Shown here piece after piece: positions 28,053-46,303 of a stretch of 50,930 nt of DNA. Source of the DNA: Methanolobus vulcani (GTDB lineage: Archaea; Halobacteriota; Methanosarcinia; Methanosarcinales; Methanosarcinaceae). Made by a program: the position numbers and the translations under genes. Positions within the stretch are counted from its first letter, which is position 1; every line of letters begins with the position of its first letter. The notes below the pieces were generated by a model that saw nothing but the letters and a program-made list of their open reading frames with translations, was not told the origin of the DNA and did no database searches. Where the stretch lies: NCBI RefSeq assembly GCF_006546655.1, contig NZ_VIAQ01000014.1, forward strand, positions 1 to 50,930, in the 5' to 3' direction.

Positions 28053-28457
28053 ATGCTTCCTAATACCATTAATACACACAACAGAGGATTGTTCAACACA
28101 GAAGCGATATACGAATTCCTGTATGAAGCCAGATACATCATCCTGCTTTACATAATAGGAGATTTCCTCACAACTTTTCATGCCATAAACAATGGATACG
28201 GGTTTGAGGAAAACGGTATTCTCTCAAGTATAATGGGAACCCACGGACTCTGGTCACTGCTAATTGTAAAACTGATGATCCTGACAGTAATCTACTGGAA
28301 CTATTGTTCCATCAAGGCATCTGTCCATTCATACGCCAGAAATCTCTGGAATCTGTCTAGGACAGGAGTAAGCGTTTTCGGACTTGTGCTTGTGATCAAC
28401 AATCTTATGGTAATTACTGTAAGATCAAGCCTGTTCGAGTGCCTGGGCCTCTTTTAA
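28053..28457 (+). CDS. Small four-helix membrane protein, DUF5658-like
   Basis: This 134-residue protein has about three to four hydrophobic segments. It carries IIGDFLTTFHAINNGYGFEENGILSS, a pattern like the D-x-LTT ... E-N motif of DUF5658 membrane proteins of unknown function. No good ribosome binding site is visible before the ATG. The last 33 bases overlap, antisense, the 3' end of the PhoU gene at 28425. A protein with similar topology (41919-42353) adjoins the second PhoU gene, which suggests a link with phosphate regulation. That link is an inference. Confidence 0.7.
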   Translation: MLPNTINTHNRGLFNTEAIYEFLYEARYIILLYIIGDFLTTFHAINNGYGFEENGILSSIMGTHGLWSLLIVKLMILTVIYWNYCSIKASVHSYARNLWNLSRTGVSVFGLVLVINNLMVITVRSSLFECLGLF

Positions 28458-29480
28458 TAAAGTCTGCTTGATATGAGTGGCCTTCATATTGATGACCATT
28501 TCAGCTATATCTGCACTGTATTCTGATATACGCTGGAAACTCTCTATTATTTTTCTCTGGCGCTCCCTTGAGAGACAGTAAGGATTGTCACTATCTTCAG
28601 ACCTCTGGATTATCTTGTTTCCAAGCGCAATTGACATCCTGGAAGTCCTCATCACGTGATTTGCAAGGTCTGTATCAATACCCATAACCGAATTAAAAGA
28701 GTCCTGGAACAATTTCTGGGAAAGCAAGCCCATTTCAATGATATCAGCATTGTCCCCTTTTTCACCATCTATCTGGATTACACTGAGAGATATGTTCTGG
28801 ACATGATCACCAATACGTTCCATGAGTTTTATGATTAAGCGATAACCCAGACAATCTTTGGTGTCTTTTATACCGATCTTGCCTGCAAGTGTTGAGTCAT
28901 CTAAGGCTGCTTTTATTTGCCTGACACTTAAAAGGTAGAACTTGTCAACATCATTATCCCTATGAATGATATCCTTTGCAAGTTCCACATCAGCTTCTCT
29001 TAATGCCACAACGGAATCCTCCATCATAGACAAAATAATACGGTACATGCTCTGAAGGGATTTCTCAAGGGAAATATCCTGAAAATTCAGCAGATTCTGC
29101 ATAATTATCTCTGTTCTGGTCTCCTCTACAATCTCAATACCTATAAGACGCCTGCGTGCAGATTCCTTCAGATACTTGCGCTCTGCAGCCGAGAAACCTC
29201 CTGGGGAAACGATTCTGATTATGTCGTAACCTACAAGATAATTTGCAACAAGAGACCTGAAGTTCTCTTCCTGGTCCTCAGATGCGATCATATCTACCTT
29301 TGAACGGACATTCTTTTTCAATTTACTCTGGTCTGAGCTAATGAGCAATGACCTGTCAGGTCTTGTTGTAAGAACCACAGTGTCGCCTGCAGTGAGTCCG
29401 CCTTCCCTTACCCACTCAATGGGAAGAGAAACAATATACGTAGAGCCACCTGTTAACTGGATCTTTCTTTTGTCTGCTAT
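28425..29480 (-). CDS. AbrB-PhoU phosphate regulator A, apparent ATA start
   Basis: This protein combines an N-terminal AbrB/SpoVT-type DNA-binding domain (RKIQLTGGSTYIVSLPIEWV) with two PhoU helical bundles (about residues 145-345). Such archaeal PhoU proteins are thought to regulate phosphate uptake genes directly. The AbrB domain lies upstream of the first standard start (GTG at 29378). The frame stays open from a TAA near 29505, with no ATG, GTG or TTG before the domain. ATA at 29478-29480, five bases after GGAAGGA, aligns with the initiator Met of the paralogue at 42307 (ATA-ADKRKIQ versus MDTRKVQ). It follows the pilin gene by 21 bases. Confidence 0.85.
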   Translation of the reverse strand: MADKRKIQLTGGSTYIVSLPIEWVREGGLTAGDTVVLTTRPDRSLLISSDQSKLKKNVRSKVDMIASEDQEENFRSLVANYLVGYDIIRIVSPGGFSAAERKYLKESARRRLIGIEIVEETRTEIIMQNLLNFQDISLEKSLQSMYRIILSMMEDSVVALREADVELAKDIIHRDNDVDKFYLLSVRQIKAALDDSTLAGKIGIKDTKDCLGYRLIIKLMERIGDHVQNISLSVIQIDGEKGDNADIIEMGLLSQKLFQDSFNSVMGIDTDLANHVMRTSRMSIALGNKIIQRSEDSDNPYCLSRERQRKIIESFQRISEYSADIAEMVINMKATHIKQTLLKEAQALEQA

Positions 29481-29501: not shown

Positions 29502-30641
29502 TTAAAGAATTGTCAGGTTACCCGATACCTGGCTTAATCTGGAGGTCATGCCATCATCATCAGTTAACAGAAGATCGATGGTTACATTATGATCGTTATA
29601 CGGGTCAATTCCAATAGGCCTTACAACCATTCCCTGAAGGTCATAATCATAGAGAGTTGTTGTCCCGTTAGCTGAATCCTTCCAGATGGCCCATTTGTAA
29701 CTGGTAATAAAACCATCAATATCGGTAGAATCCGAGGCATCTAATATCAGGTAGCTACTGGGACTCTGAGTTCCATTTCCATCTTGCAGATATTCAACTT
29801 TGAATTGTACTGCTGCCACTGGCATTGGAGGAGTGAAAACTTCCCTGAAAACGTTGATGTATGAAGTAATAAGTTCAACCCTGACAGGATCTCTTTCAGA
29901 AGGAGAATTACCAGGATATGATACGAAATTCAGTGAATATGAGATATTATAATTTGATGTATTGGTGAGATTTCCGCCTGAATTGTTACCCAGGAATGTA
30001 ATTTGTCGTTTCTCATCATCCATTGTAATGTTGCCGGTTTCGATGCAATTTGTTCCGTTTACATAAGTGAGATTAAAATCGTATTCATATTCACCATAAG
30101 CATCCCATGGATGTTTTTTGAGGGAATATTTGAAGTCAGTACTGTTATTAGACCATGCAGAAGTGTCAATTATTTCAGTTCCCTGAACATCTATATCAGA
30201 GAAATTTAGATGAACTGTCTTGCTTTTAGTAGCAGGAACCTTCAACCTATGATTTGCATTATAAACAGCTGGATATCCGTTGTATGTATCGAATTCATCA
30301 GAGGAATCATCTTCATACGCCCGATAATATAGGAAATATCCATCATTAATCCGTATTGCAGAAATGTAGGAATCCTGCGTATTGAGATTAAGTATTTTCA
30401 GGTCAATGGATTCCCAGTTTGAACCATCCCCAACCGGATCGATAGAAACGATTTTGAGGTTTTCATTCTCAACTGCCTGCTGATGACTTTCAAGATCCAT
30501 TGCCTGTTTTTCGGTAGTAGATATCATGTAGGCAACACTGGAGGCAGCAATAATGGTAATCAGTATCAATAACAGGGTGCCAAATATAACAGTAACACCA
30601 GAATCGTCGTTAAAAAACGCTTTCACATCGTTGCCAGCCAT
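29502..30641 (-). CDS. Archaeal type IV pilin-like protein with PKD-like domain
   Basis: The N-terminus is a class III (pilin) signal: a short charged leader, FNDDSGVTVIFGTLLLIL, then a hydrophobic helix (ITIIAASSVAYMIS) that would form the filament core. The remaining 330 residues are extracellular, rich in Asn and Thr (many N-glycosylation sequons). The end is PKD-like: SYLILDASDSTDIDGFITSYKWAIW, and a final strand with LLLTDDDGMTSRL. At 379 residues it is much larger than usual archaeal pilins, so it may be a minor or adhesive tip pilin. A TATA box near 30669 places the transcript start at the ATG, so the message is probably leaderless. It is followed by an AbrB-PhoU gene. Confidence 0.85.
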   Translation of the reverse strand: MAGNDVKAFFNDDSGVTVIFGTLLLILITIIAASSVAYMISTTEKQAMDLESHQQAVENENLKIVSIDPVGDGSNWESIDLKILNLNTQDSYISAIRINDGYFLYYRAYEDDSSDEFDTYNGYPAVYNANHRLKVPATKSKTVHLNFSDIDVQGTEIIDTSAWSNNSTDFKYSLKKHPWDAYGEYEYDFNLTYVNGTNCIETGNITMDDEKRQITFLGNNSGGNLTNTSNYNISYSLNFVSYPGNSPSERDPVRVELITSYINVFREVFTPPMPVAAVQFKVEYLQDGNGTQSPSSYLILDASDSTDIDGFITSYKWAIWKDSANGTTTLYDYDLQGMVVRPIGIDPYNDHNVTIDLLLTDDDGMTSRLSQVSGNLTIL

Positions 30642-30673: not shown

Positions 30674-30766
30674 TTTATTTCTGTAATATATATAGTACCC
30701 AATAGTCTATAGATTTGTGGATTTTATTCCAAAACCATTTAAGCAATGATTACTTTAAGGGTTTTG

Positions 30767-31444
30767 ATGGTGCTGACTAGCTTTGGTTTAAAAAACGTAC
30801 CTACCAATGTGGTACTATTAGTAGAAGAAGACATAGGAGATGTAAAAGGTGTCTTTTTCCGCAAAATTACTTCTGATGCTTTAAAATCTGGAAAAAAAGT
30901 ATTTTACATATCTACCAGAAACTCAGAAAGCGACCTGAAAGATGAAATGAACAGGTTTGAATCTTTTGCAAAACCTGAGCTTTTAACAGTAATAGGTAAC
31001 TTTTCAGACCACATTGCTTTACTGGACATGTGCTACAAACGTCACAGGCTTTACAGCAGGCTTCACGGAGAGGACAATGGATCACTTCTGCACAACATAA
31101 GTGAAGCTGATGTCTGCATCATTGACACGTTCGCCGCACTTTTCGTTCATGAAGACACAGAAGTCATATCCGAGACCATTGAAGCACTTATCAGTATCAG
31201 CAGGAAGGAAAATATCACATTCCTGCTTTCAGCAGATATGGGTATACTACCCGAAAGAGCTGAGAAGATAATCCGATCCATGGTTGATGGTGTTATCCAG
31301 TTCAGAACCGAGTACCTGGCTGGAAAAATTAACAGATTCATCAATATCCCTAAAATGAAAGGCAGCATTCCACTGAACAAAATGATCGCATATAATGTAA
31401 CCAGTCAGGGAATCACCATGGATATGAGAGAAAGGGTTGGTTAG
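30767..31444 (+). CDS. FlaH/KaiC-like RecA-fold protein with degenerate P-loop
   Basis: This 225-residue protein has the layout of the single-domain KaiC/RAD55 family that includes FlaH, the archaellum motor accessory ATPase. It shows VVLLVEEDIGDVKGVFF where the Walker A loop should be, KKVFYISTRNSESDLKDEM after it, ADVCIIDTFAAL as Walker B, and FLLSADMGILPERAEKIIR in the sensor region. The canonical GxxGxGK[ST] is lost; only a GDVKG remnant is left, so ATP hydrolysis is doubtful. The ATG at 30767 follows AAGGG. Its position between a pilin and TadC genes suggests a regulatory part of the pilus machine. Confidence 0.75.
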   Translation: MVLTSFGLKNVPTNVVLLVEEDIGDVKGVFFRKITSDALKSGKKVFYISTRNSESDLKDEMNRFESFAKPELLTVIGNFSDHIALLDMCYKRHRLYSRLHGEDNGSLLHNISEADVCIIDTFAALFVHEDTEVISETIEALISISRKENITFLLSADMGILPERAEKIIRSMVDGVIQFRTEYLAGKINRFINIPKMKGSIPLNKMIAYNVTSQGITMDMRERVG

Positions 31445-31510: not shown

Positions 31511-32872
31511 TCAATCTCCTCCTCCATTCACAATTATTGTTGCAGTGCCCTTCGATTCACCGGCAGTTGCCGTAACTATGTAAGTTCCTGAATCTGAACC
31601 CGGCATAGGGGATACAGTGACTGTACCATCTTCTTCTGTCATAGAACTTGTAATCTCACCTGAAGGCGTTATTGTCATCTTGACAAATGTACCAGCAGCA
31701 GGATTTCCATCCATATCTGTTACGTTAAATATGATTGGATTCTGTAATGGAAGACCACCCATCATAACCTCCTGCGCATCACCGGAAGCCACAGTTACCA
31801 TATATGAAGTACCTACACCTGCTGGCAACAGCAATGTAACACATGCAACATAACTCAGAGCTATCAATATAGCAGAATGTTTGAACCCATGCTTGATCTC
31901 ACCTTCAGTAATCTGCCCGACTATAAGCCCACCAAAGAGAGCATTGAGTATGATCATATGTAAAAAACCTCTCTCAAAGTCAATATCCGAAAGACCGGCA
32001 CCACCAAGCATCTCCATACCAACCCCCTGAATCAGAGGTAACAGGGATGTTGAAAGAATGTAGGTCAACATTACGATAATACCCTGTGCAAGATAAAAAA
32101 TTACAATATATTGCTTCAGGTTTGCTTCCTTTTCTCTCTGGATAGCAATCACAGACCTCATATCCTCTGAAGTTCGGAACAACAGGTCAGCCACATTACC
32201 ACCAGTGTAGGCAGCCTGAACAACTACATCTATATACCTGGCAACAAGGCGACTATTCATTGAATCTGACATCTTGTGCATGGATTCATCAAAGGACTTA
32301 CCAAGCACCATCGATGATGCTGCATCCTGTGCATGACTGCTGATAGCTCCCAGATTTGTCTTTGAGAGATTGATGAAACCTTTTACAGGATCAATTCCTC
32401 CACGCATGAGCTCAGAAAGCTTGTACAGAAATTCACTAAAAGCAACTTCCCTTTTTTGTAGTTTCCGTTTTTCAAGGAACGAATCAATGGAATATGGAAT
32501 TATAGCTACCAGTACAGCAAATACCATAATGTGATCAAGATCATCCTTCGGTTTTTCTTCCTCAGTTTCTGGCTCTGCCACCTCCTCTTCGGTAGCTACC
32601 ACTTCACCTCTTTCGGCAGCCTCTGCAGCTTCCATTTCAGCCACAAGTGCCTCATATGCTGCTTTTCGTGCATCTGCTTCCTCACTTACAGCACCTCCAG
32701 CTGCGGCTTCATCTGTGACAAATGAATGACCTGTAAATAAAGCCATAACCACGATCATTAATGCAATAAATACAGGTATTCCTAATGTGAGATATTCACG
32801 TTTGATATCATAACGTATAGTCAGCATCTGAACATAGCGCTGCGCTGTCAGACGATATTTTTCAATATTCAT
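31511..32872 (-). CDS. TadC/GspF-type membrane protein with Ig-like C-terminus
   Basis: This T2SS F-domain platform protein has 453 residues. TM1 is at about 30-50. It is followed by an unusual Ala/Glu-rich loop of about 65 residues (EADARKAAYEALVAEMEAAE), probably a coiled coil. Then come TM2, the F domain (LYKLSELMRGGIDPVKGF, AAYTGGNVADLLFRTSED), and about four more membrane segments. The last 80 residues form an extracellular Ig-like domain (VTDMDGNPAAGTFVKMTIT, GTYIVTATAGESKGTATI), which I do not know in usual TadC proteins. The ATG at 32872 overlaps the previous stop (ATGA) and has AAGGAG before it, so it is preferred to 32899. Last gene of the operon. Confidence 0.87.
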   Translation of the reverse strand: MNIEKYRLTAQRYVQMLTIRYDIKREYLTLGIPVFIALMIVVMALFTGHSFVTDEAAAGGAVSEEADARKAAYEALVAEMEAAEAAERGEVVATEEEVAEPETEEEKPKDDLDHIMVFAVLVAIIPYSIDSFLEKRKLQKREVAFSEFLYKLSELMRGGIDPVKGFINLSKTNLGAISSHAQDAASSMVLGKSFDESMHKMSDSMNSRLVARYIDVVVQAAYTGGNVADLLFRTSEDMRSVIAIQREKEANLKQYIVIFYLAQGIIVMLTYILSTSLLPLIQGVGMEMLGGAGLSDIDFERGFLHMIILNALFGGLIVGQITEGEIKHGFKHSAILIALSYVACVTLLLPAGVGTSYMVTVASGDAQEVMMGGLPLQNPIIFNVTDMDGNPAAGTFVKMTITPSGEITSSMTEEDGTVTVSPMPGSDSGTYIVTATAGESKGTATIIVNGGGD

Positions 32873-33786
32873 AGAGTACTCCTTGAATATTTCATCCATA
32901 AAAGAATCAGGAAAACGATGTTTATGAAAGGTAACATGAAGTAAATAAAGAACTGGAACATCTGTTTAGCTGTAAAAGGTCCGAGATCAATTCCAAGAGC
33001 ACTTGTGACCACGATCATCAGAACTACAAGTACTACACTCATAACAACGCCACTCAGGTAGCCTTCACCATAAACTCCCAGAGAATCTACGAACTCCTGC
33101 TGCATTTGTCTTCTCATGTCCATGAGTTCCCTTGACTTCATCTCGAGATAGGTACGTAATCCACCACCGGATTGCATTGCATTTGCAAGGTCAATGCATA
33201 TTGCCCTTAGAGATTCTGAAGACGTGTTGCGTATCAGGTGATTCATGGCACTTACACCATCCTCACCAAGTACATCCACACGGTACATTACTTTACCAAA
33301 TTCGACAGAAACATCACCATAGTCCTCAATCGCAACTTTCCTTATGACATCCATAGGGGAAGAACCTGAACTTGCAAGTATAGTCATGTATCCAAGAGTG
33401 AAAGGCAGCTCCTGCTCGATATTCATGTTCTTGTTAGATACCTTGTTGTAAAGCATGAATGGAAAACCGCTTACAGTCAATCCAAATGTGAGGAAAGTGA
33501 GAACGGATATATAAACAAGTGGAGATGATGATTTTGTAAAAAGCAAAAGGGACAATATAAACACGATCCCTGAAGCCAGGCCAGCAGTAACCAGTGCAAG
33601 AGACATGAACATACCAGGAGTAAGTACCATGTCTGCCTGGTAAAGAGACTTAGCTATGTCATCCTGTGGTTTTTTATCTATGTGTTTACCAAAGACATAA
33701 CAGAACATCTTATATTTTTCAACATACCTGTTAGTAGGCCCATCATTGAATGCCTGATGGACGTTGACATTCTGGGTCTTGACCAT
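32869..33786 (-). CDS. TadC/GspF-type pilus platform membrane protein
   Basis: This 305-residue T2SS F-domain protein anchors the motor ATPase in pilus or secretion systems. Two N-terminal membrane segments (about 55-80 and 90-110) precede the cytoplasmic F domain (YMTILASSGSSPMDVIRKVA, AMQSGGGLRTYLEMKSRELM). Two more membrane segments lie near the end. The start codon directly follows the ATPase stop, and its own stop overlaps the next start by four bases. Archaeal systems commonly use one or two such proteins; here the pair probably forms a heteromeric platform. Confidence 0.9.
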   Translation of the reverse strand: MVKTQNVNVHQAFNDGPTNRYVEKYKMFCYVFGKHIDKKPQDDIAKSLYQADMVLTPGMFMSLALVTAGLASGIVFILSLLLFTKSSSPLVYISVLTFLTFGLTVSGFPFMLYNKVSNKNMNIEQELPFTLGYMTILASSGSSPMDVIRKVAIEDYGDVSVEFGKVMYRVDVLGEDGVSAMNHLIRNTSSESLRAICIDLANAMQSGGGLRTYLEMKSRELMDMRRQMQQEFVDSLGVYGEGYLSGVVMSVVLVVLMIVVTSALGIDLGPFTAKQMFQFFIYFMLPFINIVFLILLWMKYSRSTL

Positions 33787-35955
33787 TTAATGCGTCATCT
33801 CCAGCATCTCATCTTTTTCTCGTGAATACCTTCTAATGGCTCTGGCTACATCCTCATATTCAGTAATTCCATCCCGTGCAAGAGCTTCCAGATACTTTGC
33901 CCGGAGGTCCATTTCCCGTATCAGCTCACTCTGATCAATACCAAATTCCTCGTTGATATCATCAAACATGGCACTGCTGCCACTGTATTCATATTCATCT
34001 GTGATAGGATTCCATTTGAATACAGGGTTTGTAATAAGGTCTCCACGCTCCGGGTCAAGCTCCACTATCTCAACGATCCTTAAAGCACGCCTGAGGAAAT
34101 GTTCGCCCACTTTTATCATAGAATTGAAAATAACCATGTCGACACTGGCAAAGAGATTCCTTGGAACGTTCATCGGTTCTGATTCAACCCTGGAAAGTAG
34201 TTCCTGTATAGAACCTGCGTGTATTGTCCCCATACATGGGTGACCTACGGAAATTGCCTGGAAAAGCGTACCGGCTTCAGCACCACGAACCTCACCAACT
34301 ACTATGTATTCTGGCCTTTGCCTCAAAGCAGCCTTCAGGAGATCGAAAAGTTCGATGTCTCCTGCGGATTTACCTCCCTCACCTCCACCAAAACCAGCTC
34401 TTGTGATAGACTGTGTCCAGTTAGGATGCATGAGGTTCATTTCGGCAGTATCTTCAATAGATACGATCTTGTATTCCGGTGGAATAAATGCACCCAGAGC
34501 GTTCAGGGTGGTGGTCTTTCCAGAAGCGGTTCCGCCGGCTGCTAATACGGAACGTTTATACTCCACCATGAGCCAGAAATATGCAAGGACGGTTGAATCA
34601 TATGTTTTGTAGTTCATCAGATCAATACATGAAACCGGATTGGATCTGAAACGCCTGATGGTGAATGTGGAACCTCTTTTTGTAACCTCTTTTCCAAGTG
34701 TTAGGTTTGCACGGCTCCCATCCACCAGTGTTGCATCCCTGATAGGCTCCAGTACCGAAATATGCCTGCCTGCCGCCTGTGCCATCCTCATGACGAAATT
34801 GTTGAGCTCGATCTCTTCATAGACAACATCAGTTGCCACGGAACCGTATACCCTGTGGTTGATGTAAAGAGGAGTATATGGACCGTTACATGTGATATCC
34901 TCAATATAAGGATCTTTCATCAGGAGGTCCATCCTATCAAATCCCATGTACTTTTTGTGAAGATAATAGAAGAATTTGTCTTTCTGAGTTTCAGTGAGCT
35001 TCAGACGGTAAATATCAACAATGAGATTGAACCTGTCCCTCAGAGCCTCAGCACGATCTTCCTCCTCTACAAGAAGAATCTCTGAGTGTGCCATTTTATC
35101 AAAGGCATTCTGTATAATGAACATTGCTTCTTTTTCAGATTCACTTAAAGGAGGCTCAAGGCAAGTATATTGAAGTGACTCTCCTGTGAATTCAACATGA
35201 ACATACTGGAATCCATAAGTAACTTCATAGGTGATGCTAATTTCTTTTTGTGGAACTCCGGGAACAGGAATTGATATCTCATCAACAATGAACTCCATCT
35301 CTTCGATTATTTCGGGTTTTGGAGTTATTATCTGTTCTATCTTTTTGAGAAGTAAAGAAAACTGAGAATCTTCAGCCAATTCTTGTCCCTGTTTATCTAC
35401 GGATGTGATAGTATTGCTATCTTCGTTTTCTGAATTGTTTTTCTTTTTTTTGCCAAACTTCAGATTCAATTTTGACTCTGATTTCTTTTTTGCAGGTTTT
35501 GAGCTTTGTTCCCCATCCTCAGCTTCTGCAGTGCTTAGACTGTCTTTTTTAGAGGATTTCTTTGACTTCTTTTCCTTTTTGCCTTTTCTGAAACTAAATT
35601 TTTTCTTTTTCACGGCTTTGTCTTTGGGAACAGAGGCTTCAGAATCCTCGACAATAATCTCAGGTTCTGGTTCCAAAGGGATGGAATTAATGTCTTCTTC
35701 ACCATTAAGGAAGAAATCCCCAGATGAATCCTGATTATCTATAATTTCATTCTCATCTGAAAAAGGAATTATTTCCTCTTCACTGATATGCCCATTACCG
35801 GAAAACTCATCATCATCTACTGATTCAATTGTTTTATCTGGCAGATCTGGTACGTGTTTATCATCAGAAACTGATTTTATGTCAGCTGCCACTTCACCTG
35901 ATCCAGATGATGATTTCTTTTTACTGAACCTTGAACGCAGTTGAAGTTTAGCCAA
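33787..35955 (-). CDS. GspE/TadA-type secretion ATPase with charged N-terminal extension
   Basis: This 722-residue type II/IV secretion ATPase should drive pilus or filament assembly at the cytoplasmic face. The catalytic part (about residues 260-690) has Walker A AAGGTASGKTTTLNA (Lys about 480), the Asp box IEDTAEMNL, Walker B EYIVVGEVRGAEAG and the His box GHPCMGTIHAGS. The first 210 residues are a low-complexity tail alternating acidic blocks and long lysine runs (KKKKFSFRKGKKEKKSKKSS), absent from ordinary family members. The TTG start at 35955 has a perfect GAGGAGG site inside the end of pstA, which it overlaps by eight bases. This overlap is strong evidence for coupling to the phosphate transporter genes. 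Confidence 0.93.
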   Translation of the reverse strand: MAKLQLRSRFSKKKSSSGSGEVAADIKSVSDDKHVPDLPDKTIESVDDDEFSGNGHISEEEIIPFSDENEIIDNQDSSGDFFLNGEEDINSIPLEPEPEIIVEDSEASVPKDKAVKKKKFSFRKGKKEKKSKKSSKKDSLSTAEAEDGEQSSKPAKKKSESKLNLKFGKKKKNNSENEDSNTITSVDKQGQELAEDSQFSLLLKKIEQIITPKPEIIEEMEFIVDEISIPVPGVPQKEISITYEVTYGFQYVHVEFTGESLQYTCLEPPLSESEKEAMFIIQNAFDKMAHSEILLVEEEDRAEALRDRFNLIVDIYRLKLTETQKDKFFYYLHKKYMGFDRMDLLMKDPYIEDITCNGPYTPLYINHRVYGSVATDVVYEEIELNNFVMRMAQAAGRHISVLEPIRDATLVDGSRANLTLGKEVTKRGSTFTIRRFRSNPVSCIDLMNYKTYDSTVLAYFWLMVEYKRSVLAAGGTASGKTTTLNALGAFIPPEYKIVSIEDTAEMNLMHPNWTQSITRAGFGGGEGGKSAGDIELFDLLKAALRQRPEYIVVGEVRGAEAGTLFQAISVGHPCMGTIHAGSIQELLSRVESEPMNVPRNLFASVDMVIFNSMIKVGEHFLRRALRIVEIVELDPERGDLITNPVFKWNPITDEYEYSGSSAMFDDINEEFGIDQSELIREMDLRAKYLEALARDGITEYEDVARAIRRYSREKDEMLEMTH

Positions 35956-36841
35956 TTCTGCGCCTCCTCAACAGAAGCCTAGTACCAAGATTGATGAACA
36001 TAACTATGCCAATCAATACTAAAGCTGCAGCAAACCCTTCACCCTGGTCCACCATTGTAGGATAATGATATGAATTGTAGATGGTTATAGGAAGCGTTGC
36101 AAGCAGAGCCTGGAAAGGATATACCTTCACACCATAGACAAGCGCTTCATTTGGTACTATTTTGAATGAAAGCATGTGAATTGAGTAGCCAGCTGTCATA
36201 ATAACAATTGCAGATTCTTCAGCTGCACGACCGATTCCAAGAACGATACCTGTTATTATGCCTGACAGAGCAAATGGCAGGGTAATCTTTGTTATAGTCT
36301 CCCATTTATTAGCTCCAAGTGCATAACTTGCTTCTTCCAGCTCCTTTGGCACCCTGTCAATAGCCTGCTCAGCTGCCCTTTCAATAACTGGGAGGATTAA
36401 CAGGGAAAGAGCAATTGAGCCTGATATCAACGAAAAGCCTCCTGTATAGTACCTGAGATAGAAAACAAGAATCAAAATACCCAATGCACCCAGAACGATG
36501 GATGGAGTACCTGAAATCACTTCTACACAAAAATCAACTAGTTTGATGAAAGGACGATTTTTTGCATAGCGTTTCATATAGACTGCAAGACCGACTGCTA
36601 GAGGAGATGCAATTGCTGTTGCAAAAACCGAAAGGACAAACGTACCTGCTATCGAATTACCGATCCCACCTCCAATACCTGGAGTTTCATTTTCAGATGT
36701 CAGCAGGAAATACCAATTAATGTATGGAATACCGGCCCAGGCAATTTTCCCCATAATAACTATCAATATCAACCCTGAAATGATTCCGGCCAGATAGCTA
36801 ATTCCCTTAAAGATATTTTCTTCAAGCCTTCGACGATCCAT
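35948..36841 (-). CDS. pstA: Phosphate ABC transporter permease PstA
   Basis: PstA is one of two inner-membrane permease subunits of the Pst phosphate importer. The 297-residue protein has six membrane segments. The EAA coupling loop, EEASYALGANKWETITKITLP, would normally contact the PstB ATPase. Other family motifs are GIGGGIGNSIAGTFVLS and SGTPSIVLGALGI. The ATG at 36841 follows GAGTG and overlaps the pstC end by 20 bases; the frame opens at a GTG three codons earlier. Its stop lies inside the start of the secretion ATPase gene. No pstB gene follows, unlike the usual pstSCAB order. Confidence 0.95.
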   Translation of the reverse strand: MDRRRLEENIFKGISYLAGIISGLILIVIMGKIAWAGIPYINWYFLLTSENETPGIGGGIGNSIAGTFVLSVFATAIASPLAVGLAVYMKRYAKNRPFIKLVDFCVEVISGTPSIVLGALGILILVFYLRYYTGGFSLISGSIALSLLILPVIERAAEQAIDRVPKELEEASYALGANKWETITKITLPFALSGIITGIVLGIGRAAEESAIVIMTAGYSIHMLSFKIVPNEALVYGVKVYPFQALLATLPITIYNSYHYPTMVDQGEGFAAALVLIGIVMFINLGTRLLLRRRRIG

Positions 36842-37802
36842 ATGATCCACTCATTAGTTTTATTATAATAACAAAGAATATTTCCATTCCAAAAAGCAAA
36901 GCTGCGATTGCAAATAGGGCACTGACAGCTTCGTCATTGTTGAAGTTTGAACCAAGATCACCGAGTATAAGACTTGTCATTGCAGTACCCGAATCAAGGA
37001 TAGAAACAGGAGCTGTTGCTGACCCACCATACAGCATGAGCACAGCCATTGTTTCACCCATGGCTCGCATGGCACCCAATATCACAGATGCAGTTATCCC
37101 ACCTTTTGCAGCAGGCAATACAACATTTTTGATCGTTTCCCATTTGGTGGCACCAAGGGAAAAAGAAGCATCCCTGTAATCTTTCGAGACCATGCGTATA
37201 GCATCCTGTGAAAGTGTAACGATCGTTGGCAGAACCATCACCGCAAGCACTGTGGAAGCCAGCAACAGACTAAAACCATCATTGGGATTATTATCACGGA
37301 ATATTGGAAGGAAAACTCCCAGAGTACCATTCAGGAACGGATCGATATGATGACGGAAAATATCCTCCAGTATGAAAAATCCAAATATCCCGTACACCAC
37401 TGATGGAATCCCTACTAGGAGCTCGATCAAAGGACGCAGTATTGACTCTATTCTCTTTGATGCAAACTCTGTGAGAAAAATTGCTGCAAAAAGTCCTAGT
37501 GGGACTGAAATCAGAAGCGTAAGAACTGTCAGGTAAATTGTACTGAGGGCATAATTCCAGATTCCATAGGCACTTGCACCATAGTTCCACCTAGTTCCGG
37601 TTATAAAATCTAGCAGACCCACTTTTAATAAAACAGGAGAAGCCACATAGAAAACATATATTATGATAAACAACATCAGGAAAAGTGTCATTCCTGCTAT
37701 TGCAGAGAAGAAGAGATTATCGGCATTTTTAAATTTAAAATTATTGGACAATCCAGCTGTTTCCAGAAGCTTTGTATTCAGTCTTTCAATAAATTGTTGC
37801 AT
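36822..37802 (-). CDS. pstC: Phosphate ABC transporter permease PstC
   Basis: PstC pairs with PstA to form the phosphate channel. The 326-residue protein has six membrane segments, a conserved loop after TM1 (LLDFITGTRWNYG), GIPSVVYGIFGFF and the EAA loop RDASFSLGATKWETIKNVVLPA. The ATG at 37802 is chosen because GAGG precedes it; the frame extends to 37844 across the terminator hairpin and is not supported there. It overlaps pstA at its 3' end. A strong terminator-like hairpin separates it from pstS, so it probably receives only part of the pstS transcription. Confidence 0.95.
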   Translation of the reverse strand: MQQFIERLNTKLLETAGLSNNFKFKNADNLFFSAIAGMTLFLMLFIIIYVFYVASPVLLKVGLLDFITGTRWNYGASAYGIWNYALSTIYLTVLTLLISVPLGLFAAIFLTEFASKRIESILRPLIELLVGIPSVVYGIFGFFILEDIFRHHIDPFLNGTLGVFLPIFRDNNPNDGFSLLLASTVLAVMVLPTIVTLSQDAIRMVSKDYRDASFSLGATKWETIKNVVLPAAKGGITASVILGAMRAMGETMAVLMLYGGSATAPVSILDSGTAMTSLILGDLGSNFNNDEAVSALFAIAALLFGMEIFFVIIIKLMSGSYGSSKA

Positions 37803-37827
37803 CGTTTTCCTCAAAAATAAATAAATC

Positions 37828-37855
37828 AAAAAAAAGGTCTGCACTGTGCAGACCT
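37828..37855 (-). terminator. Terminator-like hairpin between pstS and pstC
   Basis: AGGTCTGCA and TGCAGACCT form a perfect 9-bp stem with a three-base loop (37835-37855). On the minus strand eight T follow at once. It lies 26 bases after the pstS stop and before pstC in the same direction, so it probably lets most transcripts end after pstS while some read on into pstCA and the pilus genes. Confidence 0.85.
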
Positions 37856-37880
37856 AAACATTAAATATTTTTAGTTGTGT

Positions 37881-38879
37881 TTATACAAGGTCAACCATTG
37901 CGAAGTAACCTGCATCCTCGTAGTAGTTTGCGTTGGATGGGTTCTTTGCAAAGTCGATGAAGGACTGTGCGATTGCAGATGGGTTACCAAGGGTGATAAG
38001 GTTGAGTGGTCTTGTCATTCCAGCTGGGAATGGTGAAGTCTCACCGTTGATTGCAGCAACTACATTGTCAGAGTCTGCAGCTTCAGCATTTGTACAGTCG
38101 ACACCAATGATTGTAAGACCATATTTCTGTGCGAATCCGTAGTCGACAAAACCGATTGAACCATCGTGACCTGCAATATATTCAGCTACAGCTGCATTGC
38201 CGTCAAGTTCCTTAGCCTGGATGTCATCAGATTCCATAATATCATCATCAAGACCGATGTATGAACAGAGTGTGTCCTGTGTTCCACTGTCACCGGTTCT
38301 CTTTACAACTGTGTATGTACCAGCTACTGTATTAAGACCTGGGAGAGTAGTTACTGTTTCACCTGCTCTGGCACCATTAGTAGAATCATTATACAAAGCA
38401 AGAACATCTGCACCTGTCATGTTAAGGTCAGTCATGACATCACCTGAAGCATTGTTCATAACCATAACTACTGCACTTGCACCAATCTGGTGTGCCTGAA
38501 GGTCTGGGTATTTTGCAAGTTCTTCTGGCTCAATGTCCCTGGATGCTGCACCGATGTCTACAAGACCCATACCTGCTGAAGCAACACCAGTTCCTGAGGA
38601 AGAGGATGCTACATCTACGCTTACACCTGCATGGGATTTCATGTATTCTTCTGAAAGAGCGAGGGATACTGGGTATACAGTTGAGCTACCGCCGATGAAA
38701 ATCTCGACAGAGGAGGACTGTGCTGCATCGCCTGCGCTTGCACTGTCAGATACTTCGTTTGAGAATGATCCCATGATTGTTCCTACAGCTGCTGCACCAG
38801 CGATTGCTACCACTACTAAGACGAGGGTTGCAACGATAGGTGAAACACCAGCTTCATTGTTGAAAAGTTTCTTAAACAT
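37881..38879 (-). CDS. pstS: Phosphate-binding protein PstS with type IV pilin N-terminus
   Basis: Residues about 55-332 form a PstS-type phosphate-binding protein: IFIGGSSTVYPVSLALSEEY, SSSSGTGVASAGMGLVDIG, ASRDIEPEE, RTGDSGTQDTLC (anion-binding SGT) and the C-terminal FIDFAKNPSNA. The N-terminus is not a lipobox but an archaeal pilin signal: FKKLFNNEAGVSPIVA, then TLVLVVVAIAGAAAVGTIMG and an Ser/Ala linker. The same pattern (FNDDSGVTVI) begins the pilin at 29502. Family knowledge says such leaders are cut by a prepilin peptidase and the protein is assembled through its hydrophobic helix. First gene of the operon with pstC, pstA and pilus ATPase genes. Confidence 0.93.
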   Translation of the reverse strand: MFKKLFNNEAGVSPIVATLVLVVVAIAGAAAVGTIMGSFSNEVSDSASAGDAAQSSSVEIFIGGSSTVYPVSLALSEEYMKSHAGVSVDVASSSSGTGVASAGMGLVDIGAASRDIEPEELAKYPDLQAHQIGASAVVMVMNNASGDVMTDLNMTGADVLALYNDSTNGARAGETVTTLPGLNTVAGTYTVVKRTGDSGTQDTLCSYIGLDDDIMESDDIQAKELDGNAAVAEYIAGHDGSIGFVDYGFAQKYGLTIIGVDCTNAEAADSDNVVAAINGETSPFPAGMTRPLNLITLGNPSAIAQSFIDFAKNPSNANYYEDAGYFAMVDLV

Positions 38880-39219
38880 ATTTATCGTACACCAATTTGT
38901 TTTATGTTCCTATTCAGAGTGGGTTTTAATCACTCTGGCACCTAATTGGAGTGAGAATATATAATGCTTCTACAAGTAATGTATATAGTACAATTATCAA
39001 TATAGAATTCCAATATCTCTATATACTGGTGCATATACATCAAATAATTGCATTTAAGTGTAACATAGAGAACTATATTTTATTATTGTGGAAGAATAAT
39101 TTATAAAAAGAGCTTTGCGCCAGCATATTTTTAATTAATTCAATTTATTAAAAAGTATACAGAAATAAGTAACTGTATATTGAATAAATAAAATATTTGC
39201 AGAAAAGAAGAAAAAGGAA
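38880..39219. promoter_or_regulatory. pstS promoter region with dyad and TATA box
   Basis: On the minus strand a TATA box (TTATATATTC, about 38956-38966) lies about 80 bases before the pstS start, which predicts a transcript start near 38934. A perfect inverted repeat CAGAGTG/CACTCTG (38915-38937) covers that position, and a third GAGTG copy lies at 38949-38953. This is a good candidate operator or leader hairpin for phosphate control. The rest of the gap, to 39219, is AT-rich without genes. Confidence 0.55.
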
Positions 39220-41262
39220 TCATTTGGATATCAAAGTATATACTACAAGGAATACGACAAGTGCTATTCCTATAACAACTGCATACAAATAATTTTCCAC
39301 AGCAGCTATAGCAGAATTTTCAGCCATGCTAAAAACAGAAGCAATCCCGCTAAGAGCACCTCTAAAAATATTGCTTACAAATTGCTGAACCTTATCAAAG
39401 ATACTGCTGATCGGAGAGAGAATCTTTGATAAGAATGAAGTTGATGATTCTGTTTCTACTTCCAGAACAACATCAGAAGTATCGGGTAATTCATCATCTG
39501 TGGAATAAAGGTCATCATCAGTGGTTTCTTCTGAAACGTCAATAACTTCGTGTTCAGACTCAACAACAACAGGCACTACTGCATTCTCTGTGATATTAGA
39601 CTCTGTAACCCACCCACCATTCATAGGCTTCCAGTACTGTTTAACTTCAGCACCATCTACATAATAGGAAGATTGAGCTTCACCCTCATAATCCCATATA
39701 GATTTGAACTCACAGACAGCGGCAGGAAGATTAGGTGCTTCATCAGAAGAGAACTCGTATGACATGGAAAGTGTTGAGCCGGGAGGAAGCAACACACCCT
39801 TTACAGAAACCATTTGCGTACCATTGACAACTGTTGTACTAAGATCCCATTCGCTTAGAGGAAGATCACTCCCTTTCAGGCTTTTCTCCAAACTTCCACT
39901 TACATAGTTTACTTTATCAGGAATAAAATCAGTAAGATTAATCCAGGATGCACGGTCACCATCATTAGAAAGATCAAGAGATACTCTATAATCAGAGCCA
40001 TCTTTAACCAATTTTTTAGCAACTACAATATGTGGACCATGAACAGTCAGACTTTCTGACCCGGAACTCCAGATCAGATTTTCACCAAAGAAATTAGCAG
40101 TAACTACAACTTTGTCAAAAGTGTATTTACCCGGGGCTATGGAGACCAATTTCTGACCAATATAGTACTGACCATCTGGGGCCATGGATGAATAATCACC
40201 AGATTCATAAATCTCAGATATTACAAGGTCATCAGGAATAACAGAAAACTGAACATCCATGTCATCAATTGCATAAAGACCCAGATTGAAAACGCGGGTT
40301 CTCAAAAAAGAATACTCATCAGCACCCCTTATCTCGAAATCAATTGATGCGGAAGTACTGGTACTTTTATCAAGCTGTTTTACATACCAGGTACTCATAT
40401 TTATTTCTTCATTCACAATTTCCATGGTTACTTTAAGTTCTGGATCTGTACACTCAAAAGATATTGAATCGCTGGCATCAAAATAACCATCCTTAATATC
40501 ATACCCACCCGCAGTAGCATTAACATAATAAGTTAAATCATAAGGCGAAATTACACCATCCCACTCAGGCGCCACCACTGTAAAATTCATTTCAACACTG
40601 TCACCTACTTCAAGACAACCTAAATTTTCCTTTAAAATGCCATCCCGGTATTCAAAGTCCTCTTTTGAGCGTACCTTCATCTCGTCAGTGTCAATCTTAA
40701 GAATAACATTCTCAATCCAGGCATCACCAGTATTTGTTACAGTTACATCTATCTTTTTCTCCTCCCCCGGAGCATACTGTTCTGAAGAAACATCCACTCC
40801 ATCTACAGTTTCAGAACTTGCATCAAATTCAATTTCAAGTTCTGGACGCCCCCTTGAATATAACTTAAGACTTGCAGATGGAGTTTTATATCCATCAACA
40901 GAAATACCGGATATTTCCACTTTAACCTCATTGTTCCATTCAAGCCATTGCTTGTCGTATGAACCTGTTAGAAAAAGAAATTCTTTCCTGACAACTCCAT
41001 CTCTTTCTATGGAAATAAGAGCAGCATCAAGGCTTTCGTCAAAGTCATCAGCTCTAAATGTGTAAGATTCACCATTAATCTCAATAGTCTCAACCTGACC
41101 CCACTTAACACTTACACTACCTTCACTGACCCACTCAACACAATCATCAAGGTCATCACATGGACACTCAGTATTTGCAGATGCCAGAGGTAGTTGTGAA
41201 GAGAAAAGCAGTAATGTTGTCAGGCATAACAGGCAGAGTATGCATATTTTCGTTTTTCTCAC
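39220..41262 (-). CDS. Large secreted, C-terminally anchored surface protein
   Basis: I do not recognise a named family for this protein of about 680 residues. It has a signal peptide (CILCLLCLTTLLLFSSQL), a Cys/Asp-rich start to the mature part (ECPCDDLDDC), then repeated beta-rich domains resembling CARDB/NEW-type extracellular modules (YAPGEEKKIDVTVTNTGDAWI; DLSNDGDRASWINLTDFIPD). An acidic linker (EETTDDDLYSTDDELPD) follows, then a final membrane helix (YLYAVVIGIALVVFLVVYTL). It is thus anchored in the membrane with its bulk outside, like archaeal surface proteins. GTG at 41262 follows GGAGTGGAG and is preferred to GTG at 41271. It may interact with the pilus or phosphate system next door, which is a guess from position. 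Confidence 0.8.
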   Translation of the reverse strand: MRKTKICILCLLCLTTLLLFSSQLPLASANTECPCDDLDDCVEWVSEGSVSVKWGQVETIEINGESYTFRADDFDESLDAALISIERDGVVRKEFLFLTGSYDKQWLEWNNEVKVEISGISVDGYKTPSASLKLYSRGRPELEIEFDASSETVDGVDVSSEQYAPGEEKKIDVTVTNTGDAWIENVILKIDTDEMKVRSKEDFEYRDGILKENLGCLEVGDSVEMNFTVVAPEWDGVISPYDLTYYVNATAGGYDIKDGYFDASDSISFECTDPELKVTMEIVNEEINMSTWYVKQLDKSTSTSASIDFEIRGADEYSFLRTRVFNLGLYAIDDMDVQFSVIPDDLVISEIYESGDYSSMAPDGQYYIGQKLVSIAPGKYTFDKVVVTANFFGENLIWSSGSESLTVHGPHIVVAKKLVKDGSDYRVSLDLSNDGDRASWINLTDFIPDKVNYVSGSLEKSLKGSDLPLSEWDLSTTVVNGTQMVSVKGVLLPPGSTLSMSYEFSSDEAPNLPAAVCEFKSIWDYEGEAQSSYYVDGAEVKQYWKPMNGGWVTESNITENAVVPVVVESEHEVIDVSEETTDDDLYSTDDELPDTSDVVLEVETESSTSFLSKILSPISSIFDKVQQFVSNIFRGALSGIASVFSMAENSAIAAVENYLYAVVIGIALVVFLVVYTLISK

Positions 41263-41278
41263 AAACTCCACTCCGCTA

Positions 41279-41923: not shown

Positions 41924-42353
41924 CCCTTCTGACTATTTCGTATCCAAATACAGATATGGCAATAATTATGGATGTCATGGAAAGCATGAATATCATATTA
42001 GAATACGCCTCGCTGAGCACAAGCCATGACAAGCCACCGAGAACATGTGTCAGACTCATAAGAAGGATTATAAAAACGCCAATTGGATAGATTTCTTCGT
42101 CTTCCAGGAATTTTAGTATGGTGTAACCCATAAAATAATAGAAAATAACCGTTAGAGCAAGATATGGGAGAACTATATCGTGTTTTACAGCAAAGACTAG
42201 CGTTGGACTGAACTCATAATCCAGTATCCTTTCAACGCTGCCGGCAAAATAGAAAGTCAGGGAGTAATCAATAATTACACCCACACAGAGAAAAAGAGGG
42301 ATGAGTCTATAATTGCGATAGATCGATAGCAGACTCTGCAATATTTGACGCAT
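41919..42353 (-). CDS. Small membrane protein, DUF5658-like, overlapping phoU
   Basis: This 144-residue protein has four membrane segments (from about residue 20: LIPLFLCVGVIIDYSLTFYFAG; then VLPYLALTVIFYYFMGYTIL; IGVFIILLMSLTHVLGGLSW; IFMLSMTSIIIAISVFGYEI). The D-x-x-LTF motif after the first helix and a DYEFSPTL loop recall the protein at 28053. The first 47 bases lie inside the 3' end of the PhoU gene, so the two are translationally coupled; AAGGATT precedes the ATG. The start is uncertain, since the frame is open to 42422. Function unknown, but the tie to PhoU suggests a role in phosphate control. Confidence 0.72.
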   Translation of the reverse strand: MRQILQSLLSIYRNYRLIPLFLCVGVIIDYSLTFYFAGSVERILDYEFSPTLVFAVKHDIVLPYLALTVIFYYFMGYTILKFLEDEEIYPIGVFIILLMSLTHVLGGLSWLVLSEAYSNMIFMLSMTSIIIAISVFGYEIVRRE

Positions 42354-43269
42354 AATCCTTAATCCTGCTAAAACTGTCAATAATAAGTTCAATAGACTCC
42401 TCGGTTGGTAGCTGAGTAGCACTTATGAGCATTTTATTGAATATATCCTCTCTTCCAAGTACACGATTTGCAATATCACTTTCAGATTCACGCAAAGCTT
42501 CAGTGCTGTCCATGAAAATAGACTGACACTCCCTGCACAGGTCAACAAGTATTGAAAGTACTTCCTGTGGCAGTGTGATATAAGAGAAATGTAATGATAT
42601 TTTAGAAATGTGGTCACCGATTCGTTCTATGTCATTGGCAGCAAGCCGGTAATAGAATGACTCCACAAGACTTAGTTTATCATGCTTTGAAGGTTTCCTG
42701 AGGTTCAGACGTTCTACATGTTGTTTTGATACAAGAAGGAACATTCTGTCAAGGTCATCATCACGGGATATTATATGACTACATAATTCTTTGTCATTTT
42801 CCTCAAAGGCGGATGCCAGTTCATCAAGCATGAGGTATACGAGTGAAGACATCCTTTTAAGTCCTTTTTCAATGGTGAAGTCTTCAGTGTCCAGAAAATT
42901 CTTGATGATGATTTTCTTCTCGTCACCTTCAACCATTTCCATTCCTACAAGACGATGGCAGAGGTCTTTGATCTCCCTGCGTGCTGCTGCCGGAATATCA
43001 TCCCCGACAATCTCTATTGTCTGATGATCACTTATTATATATTGACCTACAAGATCTCTTTTTATGTGTTCCAGTTCTTTGTTGAACTTTATTTTTTTCG
43101 TTTTCCTGGAAACTTTGGTGCCCGGAGGTTTTAGAAGCAAAGATCCGTCTTCCTGGTAAAAAATAGAAATATGGGAACCAGCTTCCAGTTTTGAACGAAC
43201 TGCCCATTTCTTGGGAAGAGTAACCACATACGTAGATTTTCCCGTGATCTGTACTTTTCTTGTATCCAT
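42307..43269 (-). CDS. AbrB-PhoU phosphate regulator B
   Basis: This 320-residue regulator has an N-terminal AbrB/SpoVT-type DNA-binding domain (MDTRKVQITGKSTYVVTLPKKWA) and two PhoU helical bundles (about 110-210 and 215-318; AANDIERIGDHISKISLHF carries the conserved metal-binding-type ERIGDH motif). It is a paralogue of the gene at 28425 with the same layout. Known role of the family: repressing phosphate uptake when phosphate is plentiful. The upstream region has AT-rich repeats such as GAATCTATAGAATATATATAG. It overlaps the membrane protein gene downstream. Confidence 0.9.
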   Translation of the reverse strand: MDTRKVQITGKSTYVVTLPKKWAVRSKLEAGSHISIFYQEDGSLLLKPPGTKVSRKTKKIKFNKELEHIKRDLVGQYIISDHQTIEIVGDDIPAAARREIKDLCHRLVGMEMVEGDEKKIIIKNFLDTEDFTIEKGLKRMSSLVYLMLDELASAFEENDKELCSHIISRDDDLDRMFLLVSKQHVERLNLRKPSKHDKLSLVESFYYRLAANDIERIGDHISKISLHFSYITLPQEVLSILVDLCRECQSIFMDSTEALRESESDIANRVLGREDIFNKMLISATQLPTEESIELIIDSFSRIKDYASNIAESAIDLSQL

Positions 43270-43391: not shown

Positions 43392-45200
43392 TCAAAAACC
43401 AGGTATCATAAAATAGAATGTACTTCCCTTTTCCAAAACTGATTCAACCCATATCTTTCCTTCATGCTGGTCAATTATGTTTTTCACAATAGCCAGACCA
43501 AGCCCGTTTCCACCATATTTACGGGTCGATGAAGAATCAACCTGATAGAACCTGTCAAAAATCAGTTCCTGCTGATCAGCCGCAATTCCAGCACCAGTAT
43601 CTTTCACATAGACAACAGATCCGCCGTCTTTTGGGAATGTACCTAATTCAATGCTGCCACCTTTGTCTGTAAATTTCAAAGCATTATCTATGATCTTTGT
43701 CAGTGCATATGCCACTTTTTCAGGATCGGCATGCACAAACATGTCAGGACCTTTTTTTACACTGATATCAAGCCCGGATGCTATAAGTTTACCATTAAAG
43801 GACTTGATAGCCATATCAACAATAGAATTGATGCTTGTCTTGACAATGTCCATATCCTCTAATTTATCATCACATCTTGCAACTTCAAGAAGATCCTGTA
43901 TCATCCAGTTCTGTCTATCGAGTGCTTTTAGTGATTTCTCAAGGAATGAATTTCGTTTTTGCTGATCTGGCTCATCAATGGCTATTTCCACAAAACCTTT
44001 CATGATATTTAATGGAGTACGCAATTCATGTGAAATGTTAGCTATGATATTACGTTTCAGTTGCTCAAGTTTCTTGACATCTGTCATGTCTTTTGCAACA
44101 GCAACATATTTGATCTCATTCCTGTATTCCACAACAGCGATGCTCACCATTATAGTTTTATCCCTGCCGTTTTTTGTTTTAAAAGAAAGCTCGTTCATAA
44201 AAGTAGTATCTTTATCAGGAGACTCGAAAAATGAAGTTAGTTCTTCACTTTTTTTCATTACAAAAGAAATAACATCATAACCAATCAATTTATGTTCAGC
44301 TTCTTCAGCTATCTGCATGAATGCTTCATTTACAAATTCGATCTTACCCTGATCATCAATAACAATTATCCCATCAAGACTTCCGGAAACTATCTTGGTA
44401 AGATAATTACGTGTATCAAGTATCTCTTTTGATGCTTTCTCTTTTTCTTCGATAAGATAACCAATATGATCTGCCATATCATTAAAAGAATCAGCTAATT
44501 GCCCGATTTCATTATTTGAACTAATACAGGCTTTATGATCAAGATTTCCTTTCCCGAATATTTCTACGGATTTTTTTAATTCTAATATGGGGTTAGAGAC
44601 AACTGACCCTGCAACATAAGCAACATTCGAACCAACGATAAGAAGCAGAAATACAAATAAAAGAAGATACCGTGTGAACTTATCAGCTGTAGCACTGATA
44701 TATTCCTGAGACATTCCTACATGGACCTCACCTGCATTTCCATCCAGTATAGGATATGAAAAATCCCTTATGTATCCTTGTTCAGTATCTAACAAAAGAG
44801 TATTAACACCATCTGTTGCAGGATTTATACCTAACAGATCAACCGGAAAGCCTCCTGTAAAAGTGTGAACCAGTACCTCTCCATGTTCATTAGTTATAAA
44901 CACATACATAACTTCAGTGTCACTTTCTTTTATGGTCTGAATAAGCCACTGAAGGCGGACAGGGTTATCTGTAAGAATAGGATTTACACTGTTTTCCGCA
45001 AGATTACGTGTAATAGAAATACCCTTTTCGTTCAATTCGGTTTTCATCATGTCTGTCTGAACCACATTAAGGTAAGAACCCATGAGAACACCAAGAACAA
45101 GAATTATACCGACAACTGTGAGGATGAGTTTTGTCCGTATACTGAAATTATCAATACTTGAGACAAATTCTTCCACTATATTCTGTGGTTTATCTTGCAT
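43392..45200 (-). CDS. Membrane sensor histidine kinase with extracellular domain
   Basis: This 602-residue kinase has a TM at about 24-45, an extracellular domain of about 135 residues (45-180; a Cache-like fold is possible), a second TM (YLLLFVFLLLIVGSNVAYVAG) and HAMP (about 210-255). One PAS (about 265-380) follows, then HisKA with His about 391 in NISHELRTPLNIMKGF, and an ATPase domain with KIIDNALKF, DTGAGI and GGNGLGLAIVK. GAGGT precedes the ATG. The lipoprotein gene upstream ends nine bases before it, so the PhnD-like binding protein very likely presents a ligand to this kinase. No response regulator is adjacent; archaeal kinases often act through other partners. Confidence 0.93.
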   Translation of the reverse strand: MQDKPQNIVEEFVSSIDNFSIRTKLILTVVGIILVLGVLMGSYLNVVQTDMMKTELNEKGISITRNLAENSVNPILTDNPVRLQWLIQTIKESDTEVMYVFITNEHGEVLVHTFTGGFPVDLLGINPATDGVNTLLLDTEQGYIRDFSYPILDGNAGEVHVGMSQEYISATADKFTRYLLLFVFLLLIVGSNVAYVAGSVVSNPILELKKSVEIFGKGNLDHKACISSNNEIGQLADSFNDMADHIGYLIEEKEKASKEILDTRNYLTKIVSGSLDGIIVIDDQGKIEFVNEAFMQIAEEAEHKLIGYDVISFVMKKSEELTSFFESPDKDTTFMNELSFKTKNGRDKTIMVSIAVVEYRNEIKYVAVAKDMTDVKKLEQLKRNIIANISHELRTPLNIMKGFVEIAIDEPDQQKRNSFLEKSLKALDRQNWMIQDLLEVARCDDKLEDMDIVKTSINSIVDMAIKSFNGKLIASGLDISVKKGPDMFVHADPEKVAYALTKIIDNALKFTDKGGSIELGTFPKDGGSVVYVKDTGAGIAADQQELIFDRFYQVDSSSTRKYGGNGLGLAIVKNIIDQHEGKIWVESVLEKGSTFYFMIPGF

Positions 45201-45209
45201 TTGAATACC

Positions 45210-46136: not shown

Positions 46137-46177
46137 ATTTGTATTCCAACAGTCCTGCCATATATTTAAAAATACCT

Positions 46178-46193
46178 ACGTAATCATATATAC
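46178..46193 (-). promoter_or_regulatory. Promoter motif of the PhnD-like/kinase operon
   Basis: ACGTAATCATATATAC (plus strand) matches the copy at 41475-41490 at 15 of 16 positions. Its TATA-like core is about 50 bases before the start at 46136, a normal distance for a leader of about 25 bases. Confidence 0.5.
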
Positions 46194-46303
46194 CAAACTA
46201 TATCTATGGTAACTTGGCACTAAACTATATAAATTTGCTCATATATATAATAATAGTATGCTTTATATAAGTAAATAGGTATCTAAATAATGGAGGGCTA
46301 GAA

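Follow-up and report, generated by a model that had tools for sequence, protein, structure and literature searches.

A pilin-type phosphate-binding protein encoded beside its permease and a pilus-like motor suggests a bindosome-like phosphate acquisition system in Methanolobus vulcani and related archaea

We analysed a 50,930-nucleotide (nt) stretch of the Methanolobus vulcani genome (contig NZ_VIAQ01000014.1, positions 1 to 50,930; hereafter the window) and found a row of genes for a phosphate-binding protein (PstS) that bears the signal of a pilus subunit, for a permease (PstC and PstA) and for a type IV pilus-like assembly motor. These genes probably specify a dedicated, bindosome-like phosphate acquisition system with a pilin-type PstS and its own motor. 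Since PstS carries a pilus-subunit tag and is encoded beside its own assembly motor, the cells probably assemble a structure at their surface that collects phosphate. The bindosome is a Sulfolobus system (GlcS/AraS; BasABC, BasE, BasF) in which binding proteins with pilin signals need BasE and BasF for uptake, and no appendage has been seen (PMC4187195, PMC2910488, PMC4371748).

The row consists of six minus-strand genes, encoding PstS (37881..38879), PstC (36822..37802, ATG start, with a longer GTG frame from 37844), PstA (35948..36850), a TadA/GspE/FlaI-type assembly ATPase (33787..35955) and the platform proteins TadC1 (32869..33786) and TadC2 (31511..32872), the latter with a C-terminal extracellular immunoglobulin-like (Big_1) domain. 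An earlier note on this DNA, made from the sequence alone, had listed the same six, and Pfam and NCBIfam profile searches confirmed their families. BPD_transp_1 was matched, PstC scored 276.6 bits (curated cut-off 196) and PstA 250 bits (cut-off 193), T2SSE matched the ATPase and T2SSF matched both platform proteins. The gene junctions likewise proved to be as that note described them. The overlap between pstA and the ATPase gene is exactly 8 nt, with the TTG start at 35955 and the GAGGAGG ribosome-binding site at 35963-35969 (minus strand) both inside pstA; the ATPase gene abuts the TadC1 gene, and the TadC1 and TadC2 genes overlap by ATGA. The ATPase retains all catalytic motifs: Walker A (GGTASGKT), the Asp box, the Walker B region (VVGEVRG) and the His box.

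PstS opens with an archaeal type IV pilin signal (EAGVSPIVATLVLVVVAIAG...; the N-terminus reads MFKKLFNNEAG-VSPIVATLVLVVVAIAGAAAVGTIMGSFS), encoded by about 38760-38879 (residues 1-40), and the phosphate-binding fold comes after it. In the AlphaFold model a helix at residues 14-40 is joined by a flexible linker to a periplasmic-binding (PBP) domain, whose best PDB matches are phosphate-binding proteins, including 4gd5, 1twy and 1qui. Across 20 PstS relatives the motif residues of the phosphate pocket, assigned on the pattern of E. coli PstS, are invariant or nearly so. Of 20 relatives, 18 are matched by TIGR02537, the model for the archaellin/type IV pilin N-terminal domain (best 4.4e-7). Moreover, when the PstS N-terminus was used as a query against the whole genome it retrieved pilin-type proteins only, namely three above the Pilin_N cut-off and a 379-residue pilin-like neighbour (29502..30641, minus strand). 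The idea that binding proteins of this organism use pilin signals generally was therefore unsupported. In the canonical pst operon, on contig C1, the leader of PstS is lipobox-like, and the other PstS-like proteins of the genome have either such a leader or a plain helix in place of the pilin signal. With a prepilin peptidase gene present on contig C15, the genome holds the archaeal type IV pilus-like set of VirB11/TadA ATPase, TadC proteins, pilin-signal substrate and peptidase.

To follow the linkage we surveyed 112 genomes of the Methanosarcinaceae. The ATPase forms a distinct clade, called at 632-834 bits for the searched region (next best 422), which is patchily distributed over five genera (25/112 genomes). 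A pilin-type PstS lies in the same operon in 23 of these 25; of the two exceptions, one (G052) has PstC-PstA beside the ATPase before its contig ends, and the contig of the other (G047) starts inside the ATPase gene. The Fisher test for co-occurrence of ATPase and pilin-type PstS gives 6e-22, a value that overstates the evidence because the genomes are related. PstA is followed by the ATPase in nearly every related locus whose contig shows the junction, about half of them, including ANME-1 (anaerobic methanotrophic archaea), having the identical 8-nt TTG overlap. This recurrence makes the pairing more than chance, and the gene arrangement is not accidental. A lack of the junction in related genomes, which the earlier note had named as grounds for dropping its proposal, was not what the comparison of gene order across the Methanosarcinaceae returned.

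Most loci share the order AbrB-PhoU, small gene, 683-residue protein, PstS, PstC, PstA, ATPase, TadC1, TadC2, KaiC (on the opposite strand), pilin and PhoU. Carriers include Methanolobus profundi, M. vulcani, M. bombayensis, M. psychrotolerans, Methanomethylovorans, ANME-2 and ANME-1, and outside the class the series pilin-type PstS, PstC, PstA and ATPase was found in three more families besides ANME-1, with rearranged surroundings. The arrangement that the earlier note placed in a methanogen is confined neither to one methanogen nor to one family. In one genome (G051) the whole block from the 683-residue gene to the pilin is gone and polysaccharide genes stand in its place, while AbrB-PhoU and PhoU remain; this joint loss outlines the functional block.

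The history of the row was unexpected. Between the window and G046, DNA identity is about 0.9 as far as about 38,760, where the pilin signal ends, falls to 0.46-0.73 across pstS, pstC and pstA, and rises again inside the ATPase gene, reaching 0.75-0.77 from about 35,950 and 0.85-0.9 from about 35,350. Within the genus, PstS, PstC and PstA distances agree with one another (rho 0.55-0.83), as do those of ATPase, TadC1 and KaiC (rho 0.76-0.92), whereas between the first set and the second rho is only -0.31 to 0.19. In approximately unbiased (AU) tests, for groups picked after the trees were seen, the cassette rejected the grouping of the flanks (p 2e-13), and the flanks rejected the groupings of the cassette (p 2e-10 and 5e-51). 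The promoter and 5' leader of pstS (38880..39060, minus strand), which is very conserved and holds two palindromes (38915-38937 and 39000-39024), shares its ancestry with the motor genes and not with the cassette (rho 0.88-0.90 against ATPase/TadC1). The same is true of the pilin-signal DNA (rho 0.57-0.60), and for leader and signal against PstC/PstA rho is -0.33 to -0.05. Fast evolution of the cassette genes was considered as an explanation of the divergence and rejected. Some species pairs resemble each other more closely in the cassette than in the flanks (for L034/L031, PstS is 88% and PstA 93% identical, TadA 75%), and between close Methanolobus relatives the canonical PstA is 82-94% identical compared with 55-58% for the operon PstA. 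Mature PstS, PstC and PstA have been exchanged between species in situ, as one cassette, and the promoter, pilin signal and motor have stayed. Because promoter and signal share their history with TadA/TadC1 and not with PstC/PstA, signal and motor stay matched as cargo and permease are exchanged, which fits a handle and a motor that belong together. Viruses, competition and the phosphate regime are candidate drivers. Such in-place exchange of head and permease amounts to a natural domain-swap experiment and hints at which parts must match.

The row was described in the earlier note as a single operon. This reading calls for caution, because a terminator-like hairpin followed by a T-run (37828..37855, minus strand) splits pstS from pstC. 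An equivalent was found in 26/26 related loci (shuffled mean 0.1), with energies of -11.6 to -21.3 kcal/mol. Binding proteins are usually made in excess over their permease. The hairpin suggests that pstS output probably exceeds that of the permease and motor genes, perhaps through partial termination or mRNA processing, in place of one uniform transcript. When the leader palindromes were sought elsewhere in this genome, the 23-nt motif CAGAGYGATTAAAACYYRCTCTG proved to occur at pstS alone, and the window copy carries a compensatory change; a search for the pstS promoter motif at the canonical pst operon did not find it. No regulon could therefore be inferred.

The same hairpin can be read in another way. 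The motor may make an ordinary pilus, from the 379-residue pilin or others, that is induced by phosphate starvation, for example for adhesion; the PstS helix would then be a mere membrane anchor and not a motor substrate, and the linkage would be regulatory. Besides the separation of pstS from the remaining genes, this explanation can draw on the AbrB-PhoU and PhoU genes that flank the block, on the conserved place of a true pilin-like protein within it and on the stand-alone pilin-type PstS paralogues that some genomes have away from motor genes. We nevertheless think it unlikely, because the other PstS-like proteins of the genome have a lipobox-like leader or a plain helix instead, because the signal DNA shares the ancestry of the motor and not that of the rest of pstS, and because pstA and the ATPase gene remain joined over large evolutionary distances.

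A second alternative concerns the missing ABC ATPase gene. In this case PstSCA, lacking a PstB of its own, would act mainly as a phosphate sensor that signals via PhoU-type proteins, with the motor altering surface properties in response. PhoU-type genes do lie on both sides of the block, and in other genomes related PstS-like proteins with degenerate pilin motifs adjoin histidine kinases. However, the coupling loops of the operon PstA and PstC are kept and similar to canonical ones, so that they can engage a PstB; some relatives have pstB within the same cluster; and the binding pocket is preserved as described above. We judge a sensor role quite improbable. Unrelated neighbours are common in archaeal genomes, but a chance meeting of a transporter operon and pilus genes is hardly credible given a junction conserved across families, co-occurrence in 23/25 genomes with assembly gaps explaining the rest, the joint loss of the block and the fact that the binding protein itself bears a pilin signal.

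For the bindosome-like system that we favour, the following course can be envisaged. PstS would be made as a prepilin whose short charged leader would be cut by the prepilin peptidase of the genome, and the remaining hydrophobic helix would hold it in the membrane and serve as an assembly handle. TadA with TadC1 and TadC2 would assemble or extrude PstS, perhaps together with the 379-residue pilin. This protein is predicted to consist of a long N-terminal helix and beta domains, and may be an initiating or minor subunit. PstS would thereby form a short array, at the surface or embedded in the S-layer, that binds phosphate, and PstC/PstA, lying in the same membrane, would receive the phosphate, with energy from the single, distantly encoded PstB. 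We put forward more tentatively, as possible but doubtful, a motor-driven phosphate-harvesting filament or pseudopilus. PstS would be pushed through the S-layer on its pilin helix and possibly cycled back to bring phosphate to PstCA, and the head-plus-permease cassette would be swapped under selection, for instance by viruses or competitors, with handle and motor kept.

Several observations weigh against a dedicated phosphate bindosome. The operon has no pstB, and the only PstB of the genome above the cut-off is on another contig. The window PstS falls under the curated cut-offs of TIGR02537 (14.9 against 20) and TIGR02136 (102 against 207), and Pfam Pilin_N gave no match to it. Residue -2 of the Methanolobus PstS is Ala and not charged, making the cleavage motif non-canonical; the canonical context (DKA-VSP, TRA-VSP, KRA-VSP) occurs in outlying relatives, and the motif is canonical in genome G074, ANME-1 and most ANME-2. 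The retention of the signal at the exchange points could simply mean that conserved DNA is the site of homologous recombination. Polymerisation of PstS, its surface assembly and uptake are steps that we infer.

By the curated models the motor also stands outside the Sulfolobus families. The ATPase scored 191 bits against the BasE model (cut-off 1000), and the BasF model gave 35 bits (cut-off 1300); at 420 bits against the FlaI/ArlI equivalog model (cut-off 550) the ATPase falls short of the archaellum as well. The proposal that the bindosome idea is here applied to phosphate is supported in part, by the conserved and specific linkage, the pilin signal of PstS, the intact ATPase motifs and the prepilin peptidase, but not by membership of the BasE family or by a complete transporter operon.

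Comparison with known systems shows what is shared and what differs. As in the Sulfolobus Bas system, the binding protein has, at the sequence level, a pilin signal of class III, the genes of its own ATPase and platform form a unit, and a surface array is proposed. The differences are phosphate instead of sugars as cargo, PstC/PstA encoded in a row with the motor, a pair of split TadC proteins in place of one BasF, one linked pilin in place of three, an ATPase far under the BasE cut-off, euryarchaeal methanogen and ANME hosts, and a cargo that is exchanged as a cassette. The locus resembles canonical PstSCAB-PhoU in having PstC and PstA above curated cut-offs and a PstS with the phosphate-binding fold and pocket, but the pilin signal replaces the lipoprotein/Sec signal, pstB is lacking and motor genes come after. 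Euryarchaeal type IV pilus loci also bring together a VirB11-type ATPase, a TadC pair, a pilin and a KaiC-like gene (PMC4858521); here, however, a phosphate-binding protein is the chief candidate substrate that the operon encodes, and the words phosphate and Pst are absent from the main text of that census. The ArlI/FlaI and ArlJ/FlaJ proteins of the archaellum are distant relatives of the ATPase and platform proteins, but besides the ATPase score we saw no archaellin or accessory archaellum genes in the block.

Substrate-binding proteins with pilin signals have been reported in crenarchaeotes and euryarchaeotes (PMC4187195), so the idea itself is not new. According to a review (PMC2910488), the class III signal survey of Szabo et al. 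2007 lists 33 substrate-binding proteins, and some pilin-type PstS may be among them. In the open-access literature that we searched we found no phosphate bindosome or pilin-type PstS, and no phosphate case with linked permease and motor, in agreement with the earlier note, which knew of no phosphate version; the closest described arrangement that we found is for sugar binding only, in the unrelated archaeon Sulfolobus. Sulfolobus sugar uptake is the experimental case for binding proteins as pilus-type subunits, and the nature of the bindosome there is still unresolved. If our reading is true, a second case, in which the nutrient is inorganic and the genes for cargo, permease and motor form one row, would point to a general archaeal strategy. 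Moreover, its presence in ANME archaea ties the system to the phosphate economy of methane cycling.

The other members and flanks of the block lie as follows. The KaiC-like ATPase (30746..31444) is the plus-strand member, and upstream of pstS is the 683-residue protein (39220..41271, minus strand), secreted or anchored and with CARDB/DUF11-like domains. The AbrB-PhoU protein, a probable phosphate regulator (42307..43269), and the PhoU-domain protein on the other side of the block (28425..29378) are both on the minus strand.

Variants of these genes were seen elsewhere. A divergent relative of the locus (L080, genome G164) has a pilin-signal PstS-like protein, motor, pilin and AbrB-PhoU, with no PstC/PstA seen, and is possibly an intermediate arrangement. 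A second, stand-alone pilin-signal PstS paralogue stands beside a gene for a 340-residue AbrB-PhoU-like protein, away from motor genes (L035:13132-14220, L039:6682-7857, L048:6684-7808, L055:4750-5868 and L057:8962-10098); such paralogues may be served by the same motor in trans. In L053, L054, L056, L133, L134 and L135, PstS-like proteins whose pilin motif is degenerate or absent adjoin large histidine kinases; these proteins are possibly phosphate sensors derived from the pilin-type PstS family. In two genomes of another family the 910 to 948-residue PstA looked like a PstA-ATPase fusion, a candidate that we rejected as the extension matches no ATPase; the C-terminal extension of about 600 residues (L131:10783-13515 and L132:10693-13539) comprises a charged linker, membrane helices and an extracellular domain. 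Finally, positions 43392-47227 of the window hold a histidine kinase, a phosphonate-binding-type protein and a divergent second PstS-like gene, which are found near the block in several Methanolobus genomes.

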